A stretch of 64,000 nt of DNA from an uncultured Lachnospiraceae bacterium. Lineage in GTDB: Bacteria; Bacillota; Clostridia; Lachnospirales; Lachnospiraceae. Positions within the stretch are counted from its first letter, which is position 1, and each line of letters starts with the position of its first letter. This document shows positions 57,010 to 64,000 of this stretch, in pieces. The DNA lies in contig CAMEOT010000012.1 in the NCBI GenBank assembly GCA_945929965.1, forward strand, positions 1 through 64,000, in the 5' to 3' direction. The notes under the pieces are model-generated. The model did not search any database. It saw only the letters and a program-made list of their open reading frames with translations, and was not told where the DNA came from. The position numbers and the translations under genes are program-made.

Positions 57010-57678
57010 ATGAGATATTTTTTTGAATCTAAAGTAGAGAAAAAGGATGCAGGGTACACCATTCAGATTCCTTTTAATGTATGGGAAGTATGTCATCAGA
57101 GAGAAGTCATCAAGGGAGATATCGTTCTGGATAACAATATCATCGAGTGTGAGCTTCACCCCAAGGAGAAGGGCAATTATGAGATCGTAATTACCGATGA
57201 AGCTGCCGTAAAGGTAGAGCTGGGTGTGCCTCACAAGATCCTGTTACATATTAACGGTTCCCTGATCCGTATGGACCAGAACAGCCCTTACAGCTTCGAG
57301 AATCCGATCCGCAAGATTGACAGCATGAATGTGATCATCCAGCCAGAGGACGGTCTGTGCGGTCAGGCTTGTGTCGCAATGTTAGCCGGTGTTACCATTG
57401 CAGAGGTGATCAGTGTGATGGACTGCAGAGAGTGGCAGGCTACCATGGGACGTGTGATCTCTGCGCTGAACTATTACGGCATTGATCATACCGATATCAT
57501 CGTTTATACCGAGGGCAAACCCGCTGTGCTGCCGAAGTGCTGTATCATGATGGAAAAGATGGGACGTTTCTGTCATTACCTGGTACATTACGATGGCAAA
57601 TTCTACGATTCAAATCTGGGCGTACTGGAAGAGTATGATATGAGCAAATTACTGGGTTACCTGGAGATCAAGTGTTAA
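57010..57678 (+). CDS. DUF1905-like domain fused to a C39-like cysteine peptidase
   Basis: 222 residues, no signal peptide. N-terminal beta domain (about 1-90: FFESKVEKKDAGYTIQIPFNVWEV ... VKVELG) resembles DUF1905. The C-terminal half (about 110-222) has a papain-like layout: PEDGLCGQACVAMLAGVTI (oxyanion Q and nucleophile Cys), CHYLVHYDGKFYDSN (His and Asn/Asp). It could be an intracellular peptidase, a transglutaminase-like enzyme or a peptide-bond-forming toxin-type domain; the target is unknown. AACGGAGG precedes the ATG. Confidence 0.75.
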   Translation: MRYFFESKVEKKDAGYTIQIPFNVWEVCHQREVIKGDIVLDNNIIECELHPKEKGNYEIVITDEAAVKVELGVPHKILLHINGSLIRMDQNSPYSFENPIRKIDSMNVIIQPEDGLCGQACVAMLAGVTIAEVISVMDCREWQATMGRVISALNYYGIDHTDIIVYTEGKPAVLPKCCIMMEKMGRFCHYLVHYDGKFYDSNLGVLEEYDMSKLLGYLEIKC

Positions 57679-58826: not shown

Positions 58827-58909
58827 CAGTGATGTAATTCCTTATATCGTGGTATTGGGTTCAGACTTTTGACCCCGGTAGCATAATGTTGGAATTAGGG
58901 GGAAGGAAT

Positions 58910-60577
58910 ATGAGAAAGTGGAAAGCATGGCTGTTTGCGCTTGCTGTTCTCATAGGCATTGGGACTATTGGGACGGTGTCAGTAACGGCAGAAGCACAGA
59001 ATCTGAATCAGGGAAAGCGGGTACTGTTTATCAGCTCGTATTCTTATGGATGGGATACAGTCCAGACACAGATCGAAGGAATCAAGGCGGGGGTGGACGA
59101 GAATACCACCGTGGATTATGAATTCATGGATACGAAGCGCTTCCGGACGGAAGAGTCAATAGCAATGTTTGGCGAAATGATGAAGTATCATCTGGATCAT
59201 TCAGATCCCTATGATGTCGTGATCGTGGGAGATGATGCCGCACTCCGTTATGCAATGGCATTCAGGGAGGAACTGTTTGATGGCATCCCCATTGTCTTTG
59301 AGGGTGTCAATGATGAGGAATATGCCATGGAAGCAGCGAAGAATCCTCTGGTAACCGGGATGCTGGAGAAACTGTCAGTGGAGAAAAATATCGATATGGC
59401 ATTAAAGGTAAATCCGTCAGCGGACAAAGTAGTGGCCATATTGGATGATTCTATGACCGGTGAGGCAGAGCGTAAGAATTTTTACAGTGCCGAGTCAGAA
59501 TATCCGGGGTTGGAATTCTCTGAGATCAATTCTTCCGAACTGACAACTGCACAGCTGCAGCAGGCAGTCAGCAAGGTGGATGAGAATACCATACTGATCT
59601 ACATTGTAATGTCAAAGGATGGCAGCGGCAAGCAGTATACCAGTGCACAGGCGGTACGCATGCTCGTGAATTATTCCAAAGTGCCGGTGTACCGCATGGT
59701 GGAGGCCGGGATCGGTGATGGATTGCTGGGTGGTAATGTGGTATCCATGTATAAGTCCGGAGAGATCGCAGCACAGATGGCCATGGATATCGCGAATGGT
59801 ACCGACAGTACAGAGATCAATGTGGTAAAGGACAGCCCTAACATTTATTGCGTAGATGAAGACGTCATGCGAAAGTTCGGACTGGAGGCATCACAGTTTC
59901 CGAAAGATACCGAATTTGTAAATCATCGGGAGGGCTTTTTTGCCAGGAACCGTGAGGCTTTGATCCCGGCACTTATCCTTATCGCTGCACTTAATGTTAT
60001 TATCTGCTGGGTGTGCTTCGATAATTACCGCAGACGAAAGCTGTTACAGGAACTGGAGCAGGCACGTGCGATCATGGAATCGGCATCCCAGCATGACTTC
60101 CTGACGGGACTTCCGAACCGCAGCAAGTTCATGAAGGATCTGGAACAGCTGATCGGAGCCCGGATCCCCTGTACGGTCATGATGCTGGATATCGATAATT
60201 TTAAGAAGATCAACGATACTTACGGACACACAGCGGGAGATGAGGCACTGCAGCAGGTAGCCAACCGACTGAAGGACATGCAGTCCCAGATACTTACCTC
60301 TTATCGCTTCGCGGGAGATGAATTCATCCTGATCCTTCGTAGCAATCAGAGCATGCTGGTGGAGAAGACGGCGTACCAGTGTCGTCAGGTATTTGCCAAA
60401 GATGTGACACTCTGCGGAACGAAACGGCGGATCGGCGGCAGCATCGGTATTGCAAGCTATCCCAAGGACACCGATAATCTGGAACAGCTGATCGTATGCG
60501 CGGATGATGCCATGTATAAGGTGAAAAAGAACGGCAAGAACGATTTCGCATATTATGAGAAACCCACAGAGGAATAA
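58910..60577 (+). CDS. ABC-type solute-binding sensor fused to a GGDEF domain
   Basis: 555 residues. Signal peptide/first membrane segment (about 1-30), an extracellular periplasmic-binding domain of the ABC_sub_bind (TrpX-like) type (about 40-340: VLFISSYSYGWDTVQTQIEGI, DPYDVVIVGDDAALRYA, GIPIVFEGVNDEEYA), a second membrane segment (about 352-375) and a GGDEF domain (about 390-550) with motif AGDEF, still compatible with activity. Likely converts a bound small molecule into a c-di-GMP signal. AGGGGGAAGGAAT precedes the ATG at 58910. Confidence 0.88.
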   Translation: MRKWKAWLFALAVLIGIGTIGTVSVTAEAQNLNQGKRVLFISSYSYGWDTVQTQIEGIKAGVDENTTVDYEFMDTKRFRTEESIAMFGEMMKYHLDHSDPYDVVIVGDDAALRYAMAFREELFDGIPIVFEGVNDEEYAMEAAKNPLVTGMLEKLSVEKNIDMALKVNPSADKVVAILDDSMTGEAERKNFYSAESEYPGLEFSEINSSELTTAQLQQAVSKVDENTILIYIVMSKDGSGKQYTSAQAVRMLVNYSKVPVYRMVEAGIGDGLLGGNVVSMYKSGEIAAQMAMDIANGTDSTEINVVKDSPNIYCVDEDVMRKFGLEASQFPKDTEFVNHREGFFARNREALIPALILIAALNVIICWVCFDNYRRRKLLQELEQARAIMESASQHDFLTGLPNRSKFMKDLEQLIGARIPCTVMMLDIDNFKKINDTYGHTAGDEALQQVANRLKDMQSQILTSYRFAGDEFILILRSNQSMLVEKTAYQCRQVFAKDVTLCGTKRRIGGSIGIASYPKDTDNLEQLIVCADDAMYKVKKNGKNDFAYYEKPTEE

Positions 60578-60634: not shown

Positions 60635-60715
60635 CTGCCTGTTTTGAACATAAGGTTGAAAAAGAGCAGGATTATGTATATAATTAGTACTATTGACTAA
60701 AAGGAGAAAGATATC

Positions 60716-62812
60716 ATGCGAATACTTTCAGATGCACTGGGATACGTTATGTACTTTTGTTATTACCTGGTACATAATTACGGCTTGGCTATTATTCTGT
60801 TCACGCTGATCAGTAAGATCGTTCTTTTACCGGTATCGGTATGGGTACAGAAGAATTCCATTAAAATGGTAAAAATGCAGCCTGAGATCAACCGGATCAA
60901 AGCAAAACATTTCGGTGATGCGGACCGGATCGCAGACGAACAGTCCAAAATATTCAAGAGAGAGAAGTATAACCCGCTGGCATCTCTGATTCCCCTGGCG
61001 GTTCAGATTATTCTGCTGATGGGACTGGTGGAGGTTATCTATCATCCGTTAGATTATCTGCTGCATATGTCTCAGGATGTGATCACTGCATTTAACGGTC
61101 TGGCGATCAGTCTGGCAGGGGTGAATCCGGAGAGCTCTTCCGTTCAGCTTACGGTAGTGGAGATGATCAAGAGCGGCAAATACGCAGAGCAGTTCGCTGC
61201 ATTGCAGAGCAATCTTGCCGGTGTGGATATCGCTTCTGTATTACAGCAGGTAGAGAGCATATCTCTGGATTTCTGCGGTATTAACTTGAGCTGGGTACCA
61301 TCCGAAGTGGGTGGCATTGATATTATTGTGCCCATTGCAGCGGGAGTATCCGCATGGTTGTTATGTGTGGCGCAGAATGCGGCCAATGTCATTCAGGCAG
61401 AACAGTCTAAACTGAACAAATATGGTATGATGGCATTTTCCGTAGGACTTTCCCTGTATCTGGGCTGGTTTGTTCCCGCCGGTGTGGCACTGTACTGGAT
61501 CGCCAGCAATCTGTTTGCAATCTTACAGCAGTATCTGTTAAACTGGGCCATTAATCCAAAAGACTATGTGGATTACGAAGCACTGGAGGCCAGCAAACAG
61601 GAACTGGATGAATTACAGTCTATCGGAGGCAGGAAAAAGCCTTTTGCGAGAAATCCTTATGCCAAGAGAGAGAAGAAGGACTTCAAGCGTTTCTTCTCGG
61701 TGGTGAATAAGCATCTGGTATTTTATTCCGAGAGCAGTGGTTTCTATAAATATTATCAGGGAATCATTGAATGGCTGTTAGCCCATACGAATCTGACCAT
61801 TCATTATATTACCAGTGACCCTGAGGATCAGATCTTCGTACTGGCAGAGAAAGAGAATAAGATCCGTGCCTATTATATCGGGGAGAAGAGGCTGATCACT
61901 CTGATGATGAAGATGGATGCGGATGTGGTTGTTATGACCATGCCGGATATTGAGAATTTTCATATCAAGCGCAGTTATGTGAGAAAAGATATTGAATATA
62001 TCTACATCCCTCATTGTATGGACAGCCTGAATATGACCATGCGTACCGGATCCATGGATCATTACGATACGGTATATTGTGTCGGTAAACATCATACCGA
62101 GGAGATCCGCAAAACGGAGGAAGCCTACGGTCTGCCACCTAAGAAGCTGATCGACTGGGGATACTGTCTGTTAGACCGCATGATCGAAGATTACAAGAAG
62201 GCAGACAAGACGCCTCATGAGAAAAAACATATTTTGATCGCCCCCTCCTGGCAGAAGGACAATATTGTGGACAGTTGTCTCGAAGGTATGCTGGATGATC
62301 TGGCAGGTAAGGGCTATGAAGTTGTAGTGCGTCCTCATCCCCAGCAGGTACGTTTACAGCGGGACAAGATGGACCGACTGAAAGAGCGTTATGCGAATAA
62401 CCCGGATATCGAGATCCAGACTGACTTTTCTTCCAACAGCACTGTATTTGAGGCAGATCTGTTAGTGACCGACTGGTCCGGTATCGCTTATGAGTATGCG
62501 TTCACGACGAACAAGCCGGTATTATTCGTGGATACGCCCATGAAGGTCATGAATCCGGAGTATCAGAAGATCGACACTGTACCTATCAATATCTGGATGC
62601 GGGATGTCATCGGAGACCGTCTGAATCCTGCGAAGACAGAAGAGACTGAAAGTAAGGTCAGAAATCTGCTGGCACAAAAAGATGCTTACCATGATAGAAT
62701 TGAAAAATTCGTGGAAGAGTATGTATACAACCTGGGCAACAGTGCCGAAGTAGGTGCGAAATACATCGTACAGGCAGTTCAGGAACAGATTAAAAAAGCA
62801 AAAGAACAATAA
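60716..62812 (+). CDS. YidC/Oxa1 insertase fused to a CDP-glycerol glycerophosphotransferase-like enzyme
   Basis: One 698-residue frame. Residues about 1-285 are YidC-like: NYGLAIILFTLISKIVLLPVSV (Lys34 sits where insertases carry the groove Arg), QPEINRIKAKHFGDADRIADEQSKIFK (the cytoplasmic hairpin), KYNPLASLIPLAVQIILLMGL and a C-terminal GVALYWIASNLFAILQQYLL. A basic linker (about 295-325) leads to a GT-B fold of the TagB/TagF type (about 330-698): YIPHCMDSLNMT, GKHHTEEIRKTEE, ILIAPSWQKDN, VVVRPHPQQ, LLVTDWSGIAYEYAF. Such enzymes transfer glycerol-phosphate-type units to wall polymers. AAAGGAG precedes the ATG at 60716. It heads an operon with a YIDP-type small membrane protein and a sulfatase-family enzyme. 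Confidence 0.88.
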   Translation: MRILSDALGYVMYFCYYLVHNYGLAIILFTLISKIVLLPVSVWVQKNSIKMVKMQPEINRIKAKHFGDADRIADEQSKIFKREKYNPLASLIPLAVQIILLMGLVEVIYHPLDYLLHMSQDVITAFNGLAISLAGVNPESSSVQLTVVEMIKSGKYAEQFAALQSNLAGVDIASVLQQVESISLDFCGINLSWVPSEVGGIDIIVPIAAGVSAWLLCVAQNAANVIQAEQSKLNKYGMMAFSVGLSLYLGWFVPAGVALYWIASNLFAILQQYLLNWAINPKDYVDYEALEASKQELDELQSIGGRKKPFARNPYAKREKKDFKRFFSVVNKHLVFYSESSGFYKYYQGIIEWLLAHTNLTIHYITSDPEDQIFVLAEKENKIRAYYIGEKRLITLMMKMDADVVVMTMPDIENFHIKRSYVRKDIEYIYIPHCMDSLNMTMRTGSMDHYDTVYCVGKHHTEEIRKTEEAYGLPPKKLIDWGYCLLDRMIEDYKKADKTPHEKKHILIAPSWQKDNIVDSCLEGMLDDLAGKGYEVVVRPHPQQVRLQRDKMDRLKERYANNPDIEIQTDFSSNSTVFEADLLVTDWSGIAYEYAFTTNKPVLFVDTPMKVMNPEYQKIDTVPINIWMRDVIGDRLNPAKTEETESKVRNLLAQKDAYHDRIEKFVEEYVYNLGNSAEVGAKYIVQAVQEQIKKAKEQ

Positions 62813-62869
62813 TCTGTAAAACAGAAATTACAAATAAATAAAAAGTAAAAGAAAGAGGTAAGTAAAATT

Positions 62870-63151
62870 ATGAAGAAATTAAGCAAAATCGCACAGGTAA
62901 CATTTTTCGCAGCAGCATTCGCAGTACTGTTCTCCGGTACGGCAGATGCCTATATCGATCCTTCCGTTATGAACTACGCCATTCAGGCAGTAGCGGGAGT
63001 CGTTATCGCAGTGGGCGCAGCAGCCGGTATTTACTGGAGAAAGGCAAAAAAGAAGATCGACAAGAGCCTCGGTATCGATGAGAACAGAAACAAAGAAGTA
63101 GAGTCCGACGATATCATGCTGGATCAGGCACAGGACAAGCGGGACAAGTAA
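62870..63151 (+). CDS. small YIDP-motif membrane protein
   Basis: 93 residues. Cleavable-looking signal (MKKLSKIAQVTFFAAAFAVL ... ADA), then AYIDPSVMNYAIQAVAGVVIAVGAAAGIYW (key Y-I-D-P and a membrane helix) and a basic KAKKKIDKSL stretch with acidic tail. Proteins with an AYIDP...W-R-K core are regular neighbours of LTA-synthase-like and other surface-polymer genes. AGAGGTAAG precedes the ATG. Exact role unknown; probably a complex subunit. Confidence 0.8.
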   Translation: MKKLSKIAQVTFFAAAFAVLFSGTADAYIDPSVMNYAIQAVAGVVIAVGAAAGIYWRKAKKKIDKSLGIDENRNKEVESDDIMLDQAQDKRDK

Positions 63152-63170
63152 GCAGGAGAAATACTTAGAA

Positions 63171-64000
63171 ATGAACAAACGGGATAAGAAACAATTACTG
63201 CCGGGAATCGTGATAGCTATTGCTATCGCATTTCTGGTATTCCTGTATGCACCAGTGGATCTGTACTGCAGCAATATATCGGAATTCTGGTTTGATTTCG
63301 GGATATTAATCAGGGCATCACTGGGGTTATTTTTGATTAGCGCTGTCATATTGTCTCTGGCCTATGTATGCTTATGGCTCATTCATCCGGTTTTATACCG
63401 CATAGGATTAACCGGGGGATTTTTGGGACTGCTTTGTACTTACATTCAGGGCAATTTTCTCGTAAAGAATCTGCCACCTTTGGATGGAACATCGATTCAG
63501 TGGGAAGAGTATACGGTACTTCGGACGGAGGACTTTGTCCTCTGGGGTATCGGATTGATCGTTGCCGTATTGATGTACATTTTCCTGAAAAAGGATATGC
63601 TGTCTAAAACGGTTATGTATTTAAGCGGTGGATTGACATTGATGTTGTTGATCACAGCAGTCAGTGTCGTGTTTACCAGTGGAGCGTTACAGGAGAAAGT
63701 ACATTATCAGTATGGTGCGGACAAAGAATTCGTGATGTCGGAAGATCAAAATTTTGTCATTCTTCTGTTGGATACTGTGGATTCCAGAACCGTTACGGAG
63801 CTGCTGACAGATCACCCCGAATATAATGAGACATTCCGGGATTTTACCTATTTTGAGAACACAGTGGGGGCATATTCCTGTACTGAGAGATCTGTACCGT
63901 ATATCCTGTCCGGAGAATGGTATGAAAATGATGAACCATTTGATGATTATATGAAACGAATGTATCAGGTGTCGCCGTTGTTTAACACATTACAGGAACG
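63171..64000 (+). CDS. sulfatase/LTA-synthase-like membrane enzyme (partial, runs off the window)
   Basis: Open from the ATG at 63171 to the window end (276 codons, no stop). Four to five N-terminal membrane segments (about 10-180: LLPGIVIAIAIAFLVFLYAP, ASLGLFLISAVILSLAYVCLWL, FVLWGIGLIVAVLMYIFL), then the start of an alkaline-phosphatase-superfamily domain: NFVILLLDTVDSRTVTEL (first metal Asp) and YFENTVGAYSCTERSVPYILSG, which holds the expected nucleophile region. Family members move phosphoglycerol or phosphoethanolamine groups outside the membrane. It starts 19 bases after the YIDP gene, with AGGAGA upstream. Confidence 0.82.
   Translation, partial: MNKRDKKQLLPGIVIAIAIAFLVFLYAPVDLYCSNISEFWFDFGILIRASLGLFLISAVILSLAYVCLWLIHPVLYRIGLTGGFLGLLCTYIQGNFLVKNLPPLDGTSIQWEEYTVLRTEDFVLWGIGLIVAVLMYIFLKKDMLSKTVMYLSGGLTLMLLITAVSVVFTSGALQEKVHYQYGADKEFVMSEDQNFVILLLDTVDSRTVTELLTDHPEYNETFRDFTYFENTVGAYSCTERSVPYILSGEWYENDEPFDDYMKRMYQVSPLFNTLQE

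Follow-up and report, generated by a model that had tools for sequence, protein, structure and literature searches.

Members of the YidC/Oxa1 family are protein insertases, and enzymes of the TagF type transfer a phospho-alcohol with release of cytidine monophosphate (CMP). In the first 64,000 nucleotides of contig CAMEOT010000012.1 (assembly GCA_945929965.1, an uncultured Lachnospiraceae bacterium), hereafter the window, a single gene joins the two folds and is followed by genes for a small membrane protein with a YIDP motif and for a membrane enzyme of the AlkP/sulfatase type. We consider it an even call that this operon forms the final, assembling part of a system that decorates the cell surface with aminoalkyl phosphates and phosphonates, in which the transferase would load the head group, the YidC fold would flip it and the AlkP enzyme would transfer it outside. 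Genomic context supports both the placing of the recurrent fusion in one four-module system and the donor class, an aminoalkyl phosphate or phosphonate activated with CMP or cytidine diphosphate (CDP). The fused enzyme most likely attaches small charged groups, namely aminoethylphosphonate (AEP), choline-phosphate or ethanolamine-phosphate, to the surface of these gut bacteria.

A comparable described system is the lic/Pnt type of tailoring (LicA-LicC-LicD, PntC). The features held in common, as given in the part of Rice et al. (2019, PMC6697681) drawn on here, are LicC/PntC-like enzymes that activate phosphocholine or AEP with CMP/CDP, fusions of phosphoenolpyruvate mutase (PepM) with a cytidylyltransferase, and a destination at the cell surface. 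The same part of that source says of phosphonate clusters that the steps which follow the C-P bond 'remain enigmatic'. The transferase described here is TagF-like (PF04464) and fused to YidC rather than a LicD, it has YIDP and AlkP partners, and some of the loci use a CobD-like enzyme fused to LicC. The fusion system works like lic/Pnt tailoring and is not a member of it by its transferase; for the transfer that follows PntC, the fusion family offers a specific candidate. In its logic it also resembles three-component glycosylation of the Gtr type, which we take to combine cytoplasmic transfer to a lipid, a small membrane carrier and transfer outside, although the cargo here would be a phospho- or phosphono-amine. 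No paper on a YidC-transferase or YidC-AlkP fusion was among those listed in a literature search judged by titles and the beginnings of abstracts, with subscription journals mostly outside its scope.

The YidC-transferase fusion and its operon partners

The first-pass annotation had described one uninterrupted frame joining a YidC insertase to a TagF-like glycerophosphotransferase, followed by genes for the YIDP protein and a sulfatase-type enzyme. This frame and this gene order are confirmed on the contig, and in a search with hidden Markov models both halves of the product exceed their Pfam cut-offs (116 bits against 35 for PF02096, 43.8 bits against 22.1 for PF04464). The survey of relatives covered a family sample of 299 Lachnospiraceae genomes, about one per genus (labels G###), and genome_contigs, where 582 candidate stretches encoded some relative of the query and the shortened list gave 80 named loci; labels L### mark individual loci. 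The fusion recurs in 16 of the 299 genomes, namely the window genome and 15 others (it is cut by contig ends in G051, G216 and G251; G255, matching over 63 residues only, was left out of the 16), and is present in all 80 named loci. A sequencing error or frame artefact is ruled out by this recurrence across unrelated assemblies.

By record titles, the carriers are Lachnospiraceae (including Lachnospiraceae bacterium COE1), Erysipelotrichaceae (Solobacterium), Oscillospiraceae and others, and Roseburia inulinivorans DSM 16841 is among them. Three genomes in a draw of 398 from the phylum matched at E 1e-60, two with the fusion (the window genome itself and G257), whereas the third, G670, from which locus L178 comes, has only the transferase; with just two carriers in the draw, the fusion is thinly spread in the phylum. 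Two contigs titled Candidatus Saccharibacteria (L123, L129) hold the fusion with a LicC-CobD-like neighbour and are perhaps mislabelled or misbinned Bacillota. For counts by locus, 98 loci were clustered and 8 near-identical ones removed; just 35 of the resulting 90 non-redundant loci extend at least 8 kb on both sides, and the loci counted with the module profiles are also those used to train them. The fusion is at most 650 residues long in 36 of the 90.

In common with the YidC/Oxa1/Alb3 insertases, the YidC half matches PF02096 and, over its cut-off, TIGR03592 of NCBIfam (111.1 bits against 84.3), and it has the groove lysine and a Tyr-Trp pair. In contrast to them, it is fused to an enzyme, is set apart from 23 housekeeping YidC (SH-aLRT 96) and falls below the housekeeping YidC equivalog level of NCBIfam (best equivalog 81.8 bits against a cut-off of 365). 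The window genome has a separate housekeeping YidC on contig C24, beside dnaA and further housekeeping genes, which were recognised by eye in the translations. Residues were counted in 84 of the 98 loci, leaving out 8 duplicates, 2 truncated copies and 4 missed by the search pattern: the Lys34 position is K in 83 fusions and R in 1, and the groove Tyr-Trp pair (260-261) is kept in all 84. The corresponding groove arginine is R366 in E. coli YidC, and the position is described as strictly conserved positive in the cited part of PMC8920935. In 7 of the 23 housekeeping YidC rows of the family this position holds Y, N, V or a gap; the housekeeping YidC of the window genome (L004:3301-4599) has N there, by eye. 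The outer loop of the fusion's YidC domain (about residues 110-180; alignment columns 128-200) is absent in 9 of 18 aligned fusions.

The transferase half belongs by sequence to the family of TagF/TarL and the TagF-like capsule polymerases Cps3D and Cps7D, and the only solved structures that it reaches by sequence are Cps3D (8qoy, 1.1e-9) and TarL (8va1, 1.5e-8). Two histidines, His433 and the His541 of an RPHP motif, are invariant in the fusion family and in a wider set of fused and standalone transferases (Table 1). His541 is equated with the TagF-family histidine pair through the alignment with TarL, and we take His433 to belong to that pair as well. Two essential histidines are reported for TagF-like polymerases, and TagF-like domains are said to transfer different phospho groups, both in the part of PMC5974469 used here. 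Unlike those polymerases, the fusion has a YidC N-terminus instead of GT-A/GT-B partners, and the window genome is without a CDP-glycerol route over cut-off; the enzyme probably performs a single transfer, not polymerisation.

Three tandem AlkP paralogues on the same strand follow, two of them beyond the window. They are 50-58% identical, score 36.2, 27.1 and 29.5 bits with PF00884 (cut-off 25) and match no NCBIfam family at E 0.01. All 22 AlkP proteins aligned keep Asp201, Thr238, His391, Asp444 and His445; by analogy with LtaS these are probably the metal-site residues and the nucleophile, and a threonine at the nucleophile place would fit a transferase more than a sulfatase. PF00884 and, by analogy, probably this set of Asp, Thr, His and Asp-His are shared with LtaS, EptA and MCR, the lipid-dependent transferases of the AlkP superfamily, whereas the AlkP enzyme here is fused to YIDP or YidC in relatives. 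The 42 PDB matches of the AlkP set are led by VP1736 and sulfatases and include LtaS (1.2e-5), yjdB (0.006; presumably EptA) and MCR-1 (0.07). A convergent signal peptidase I gene lies after the third paralogue, and a gene for signal peptidase I is present in 26 of the 90 loci.

Gaps of 57 bp and 19 bp separate the YIDP gene from the fusion and from the first AlkP gene. By eye, the YIDP protein consists of a leader, an A followed by YIDP, a single hydrophobic helix and a basic tail. Of 55 short forms, 52 have A or G directly before the motif; all 15 fused forms have A. Because the motif of the short forms is preceded either by a leader of 24-61 residues or by just 3-16 residues, it probably lies at the outer membrane face. 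In the 90 loci, YIDP is a separate gene within 150 bp after the fusion in 44, part of a YIDP-AlkP gene at that place in 10, just upstream in 8 and elsewhere in 6.

Module shuffling in related loci

The same parts were found in four shuffled arrangements: the YidC-transferase fusion with separate YIDP and AlkP genes, as in the window; the fusion with a YIDP-AlkP protein; an AlkP-YidC-transferase triple fusion with YIDP; and a YIDP-transferase with a YidC-AlkP fusion. Fifteen proteins of the non-redundant set, most of them from Erysipelotrichaceae, are AlkP enzymes with YIDP as their N-terminus. The triple fusion occurs in L109 (1192 residues, with three Pfam domains all over cut-off) and in L110 (1180 residues, reaching the contig end). 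Since the same parts are fused in other combinations elsewhere, the arrangements suggest that an insertase has been made part of a surface-decorating machine. The earlier proposal that the genes form a single pathway to a surface structure containing phosphorus, in which the insertase serves as platform or flippase, thus gains a functional link from the module shuffling and the triple fusion, and its platform or flippase idea stays alive in strengthened form.

The fourth arrangement (B-type, with A-type for the YidC-transferase fusion) was reached through standalone relatives of the transferase half, at loci picked from the best transferase matches and not at random. Its transferase starts with a YIDPGTGS helix in all 14 standalone transferases listed and in a fifteenth frame in L139, and a neighbour of 787-1041 residues is a YidC-AlkP fusion in 13 of the 15 loci. 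Among 16 YidC-AlkP proteins (L148 included), PF02096 is over cut-off in all and PF00884 in 9, the other 7 being assigned AlkP by the locus-trained profile only. A further arrangement stands in L178, a locus from a genome of another family, which holds in a row PepM, phosphonopyruvate decarboxylase (Ppd), a LicC/PntC-like enzyme, AEP transaminase (AEPT), a standalone transferase, a YIDP-like protein (66 residues, motif YSDP) and two AlkP-like enzymes, the second called by profile only. Its order of transferase, YIDP and AlkP matches the window. The first-pass annotation had named separate halves as a finding that would speak against the fusion; a transferase without YidC does occur in this distant phosphonate operon, yet the fusion is not undone by it. 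Because the L178 transferase stands alone, the YidC part is not needed in every lineage.

A tree of YidC domains was built without an outside root from every second of the 84 fusions (42), 8 YidC-AlkP and 23 housekeeping sequences. In it, each of the three groups is split off from the rest by a single branch, with SH-aLRT 96 for A-type, 100 for B-type and 90 for housekeeping YidC. The transferase tree likewise separates the two architectures (99/98); L178 falls with the A-type there, but its branch is long. As both trees separate the architectures, the YidC part occupies two different places of the system in the two groups, and the suggested alternatives are two captures, or one capture and a swap.

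In known structures, the C-terminal end of YidC is cytoplasmic, which would put the transferase half in the cytoplasm as well. The AlkP catalytic domain is expected outside from its function, and the observed fusions can plausibly be threaded with the transferase inside and AlkP outside. This threadable topology, together with the reported lipid scrambling by E. coli YidC, Oxa1 and relatives, suggests that loading, flipping and transfer take place in one assembly; the cited part of PMC10491306 says of Oxa1, Get1 and E. coli YidC in liposomes that they 'all scrambled lipids robustly'. According to Li et al., the scrambling withstands point mutation. A dedicated flippase role of the Oxa1/YidC fold for phospho- and phosphono-amino head groups, with the fold joined to the transferase or to AlkP in two genome groups and with loading, flipping and transfer done by just one or two polypeptides, is a tentative proposal that we hold short of an even chance.

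The YidC half might instead be a working insertase that serves only partners, for instance YIDP or AlkP, and so links the pathway to their insertion. The groove charge and the Tyr-Trp pair of all 84 fusions fit this idea, as does the YIDP gene that follows within 150 bp in 54 of the 90 loci (44 alone and 10 fused to AlkP), small single-helix proteins such as YIDP being typical YidC clients. However, the genome also has a housekeeping YidC, elsewhere YIDP forms fusions of its own with AlkP or the transferase, the YIDP-like protein of L178 has no YidC beside it, and the B-type domains are without the groove charge, and we regard a dedicated insertase as quite improbable.

Donor genes near the fusion

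The AEP route of the window genome lies on the same contig and strand as the fusion (Table 1). In relatives, such a route often shares an operon with the fusion: AEPT, PepM, Ppd and a LicC-like enzyme are found within 5 kb of the fusion in L040, L045, L048, L050, L052, L058, L070 and L071. At the Roseburia inulinivorans DSM 16841 locus (L106), the fusion and YIDP genes are immediately followed by AEPT, PepM and Ppd. PepM over cut-off occurs in 10 of the 16 fusion genomes against 21 of the 283 others (Fisher p 1.7e-7, with genomes treated as independent). Of the 90 loci, 57 have a LicC-like gene and 61 a donor gene of any kind, while YIDP was found in 68 and AlkP in 62; the counts for the 35 loci with at least 8 kb on both sides are 26 for YIDP, 25 for AlkP and 25 for LicC-like genes. 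LicC-like genes number 1.24 per 10 kb up to 2 kb from the fusion, 0.56 between 2 and 4 kb and about 0.1 farther away. Glycosyltransferase-2 and ABC control genes show no rise near the fusion, and the epimerase control a slight one (0.15, 0.17, 0.08 and 0.03 per 10 kb; 14 hits). The LicC-like profile also catches RmlA-type enzymes (for example in L046 at 7.4 kb, judged by eye), and its call in L047, L091 and L093 rests on a short or distant match.

Other loci point to related donors. The LicC-like enzyme is fused to a pyridoxal phosphate (PLP) enzyme whose best NCBIfam hit, below its cut-off, is CobD (L044), or to a choline/ethanolamine kinase (L042, L075, L094, L118, L132); judged from their families, the products would be CDP-ethanolamine-like and CDP-choline. 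Four fusion copies in G283 (L041, L042, L043 and, outside the 90-locus set, L155) each have different donor genes nearby, the sets being a LicC-like pair, a LicC-choline kinase, a CobD/HisC-like enzyme with a TagD-like (glycerol-3-phosphate cytidylyltransferase) protein 3.8 kb away, and PepM/Ppd/LicC-like. In the B-type set L137-L152, donor modules accompany 11 of the 16 loci: PepM/Ppd in L141, L143 and L150, of which the latter two also have AEPT but L141 does not, choline kinase in L137, L139, L140, L144, L145, L148 and L152, and LicC-CobD-like in L138; none was seen in L142, L146, L147, L149 and L151. By eye, a 375-residue dehydrogenase-like protein replaces AEPT in the PepM/Ppd clusters of L141 (L141:4554-5681) and L156 (L156:10253-11380), the likely product of which would be hydroxyethylphosphonate rather than AEP. 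A second Glyphos_transf protein of the window genome (G000:C5:69565-71597; L038:8566-10598) lies beside a LicC-like gene in a polysaccharide cluster, and the profiles gave no YidC, YIDP or AlkP in the 19 kb examined there.

Several findings weigh against a tailoring system with these parts. In the window genome the AEP genes begin 10.9 kb past the fusion with unrelated genes between, so that the two do not form one operon there. PepM over cut-off was not found in 6 of the 16 fusion genomes, and YIDP not in 22 of the 90 loci. There is no LicC-like gene in 33 of the 90; some of these are at contig ends, yet 10 are among the 35 with at least 8 kb on both sides. The B-type domains have N or Q at the groove-charge position in 8 of 8 cases. 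The 14.5 kb examined in L178 held no YidC, and L149 and L150 have no YidC-AlkP neighbour in the DNA examined; flipping by YidC is therefore not general. LicD, the transferase already known for donors of this kind, is present in 12 of the 16 fusion genomes, so the fusion does not simply replace LicD, and a role as general LicD replacement is ruled out. In the window genome itself, no LicD (PF04991) was found.

With the same donor evidence, the transferase could act like LicD on a lipid-linked glycan repeat in the cytoplasm, YidC being an anchor beside a glycan flippase and AlkP having a separate job. The glycosyltransferase-2 genes in 30 of the 98 loci, mostly 7-10 kb away, and the L178 transferase without YidC are in line with this. 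It leaves unexplained, however, the fusion of YidC to AlkP in the B-type and to both enzymes in L109 and L110, as well as the AlkP and YIDP genes that travel with the transferase, and we judge it unlikely.

Polyol-donor genes are a further point against aminoalkyl donors. TagD is over cut-off in 2 of the 16 fusion genomes, and, PepM left aside, G022, G086, G213 and G283 have TagD-like matches of 58 to 128 bits, below the cut-off. Of the 90 loci, 5 hold a TagD-like protein distinct from PepM and 3 an IspD/TarI-like one, so a minority of the members may use polyol donors. These genes, PF04464 over cut-off, TarL and Cps3D as the only solved structures reached and LtaS among the AlkP matches all favour a polymer of the teichoic type, built from glycerol- or ribitol-phosphate, for which the TagF-like half would be a polymerase tethered to YidC and AlkP would resemble lipoteichoic acid synthase. 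On the other side, the window genome has no TagD (TIGR01518) over cut-off, where only the PepM fusion gives a weak match, and just one IspD passes its cut-off; LicC-like genes with AEP, CobD-like or choline-kinase partners stand near many relatives. A teichoic (glycerol-phosphate) polymer, to which the teichoic-type transferase of the first-pass annotation pointed, is thus not borne out, and we consider a teichoic product hardly probable.

Proposed route and features of the window

If the operon is the end of a tailoring system for aminoalkyl phosphates and phosphonates, cytidylyltransferases of the LicC/PntC kind would make the CMP- or CDP-activated head group, which would be CMP-AEP in the window genome and would resemble CDP-ethanolamine or CDP-choline in relatives. 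Attached to YidC at its cytoplasmic C-terminus, the TagF-like half would move the group from CMP to a membrane acceptor, most likely a lipid. The YidC fold would hold the transferase at the membrane, and its hydrophilic groove may carry the charged head group across. The AlkP enzyme would then transfer the group to a polymer outside, with the YIDP protein, its motif at the outer end of the single helix, as a frequent partner. A number of gut Lachnospiraceae, Erysipelotrichaceae and Oscillospiraceae would in that case carry AEP, choline- or ethanolamine-phosphate on their surface, which the host may sense. If the fold does act as a flippase, this would be a non-insertase job for Oxa1/YidC, and a further transferase chemistry would stand beside LicD in the phosphonate and phosphocholine decoration of gut Bacillota. 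Tied by several fusions to the enzymes of one small-molecule pathway, the YidC fold is here a natural test system for its own role.

Table 1. Features of the operon and of the linked genes of the window genome (positions without prefix refer to the window)
Feature	Position	Strand	Basis
Promoter-like TTGAAA-17-TATAAT before operon	60656..60684	+	consensus scan
YidC-transferase fusion gene, 698 residues, one ATG-started uninterrupted frame	60716..62812	+	open reading frame; Pfam/NCBIfam matches
YidC/Oxa1 (60KD_IMP) domain, residues 22-276	60779..61543	+	PF02096; PDB YidC chains matched by sequence
Lys34 codon, aligned to conserved groove arginine of E. coli YidC	60815..60817	+	alignment
TagF-like (Glyphos_transf) transferase domain, residues 332-677	61709..62746	+	PF04464; TarL 8va1 and Cps3D 8qoy by sequence
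His433 codon, invariant	62012..62014	+	60 fusions; 28 fused and standalone transferases
His541 codon, RPHP motif	62336..62338	+	invariant in the same sets; aligns with FKMHP of TarL
YIDP protein gene, 93 residues	62870..63151	+	open reading frame; homologues in 68/90 loci; motif survey
YIDP motif, residues 28-31 of YIDP protein	62951..62962	+	sequence; motif survey
AlkP/sulfatase-type membrane enzyme, first of three, cut by window end	63171..64000	+	PF00884
First AlkP gene, whole, 554 residues	L003:3172-4836		
Second AlkP paralogue, 560 residues	L003:4874-6556		
Third AlkP paralogue, 553 residues	L003:6575-8236		
LicC-like NTP transferase	L003:13667-14563		PF00483, PF12804
AEP transaminase (AEPT)	L003:14642-15919		NCBIfam equivalog, 470.2 bits against 360.8
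Cytidylyltransferase-PepM fusion	L037:926-2221		NCBIfam equivalog, 405.9 bits against 319.55
Phosphonopyruvate decarboxylase (Ppd)	L037:2211-3395		NCBIfam equivalog, 468.3 bits against 312.5

The promoter-like site before the operon is a consensus match only, since 6 such sites were found in the whole stretch against 7.8 expected from shuffles. Directly upstream of the operon, at window positions 58886-60577, a gene encodes by eye a periplasmic-binding-like N-terminus with a GGDEF-type domain. Farther upstream (57010-57678) lies the gene for a 222-residue protein, the C-terminal half of which resembles, again by eye, a Cys-His peptidase of the C39 kind.

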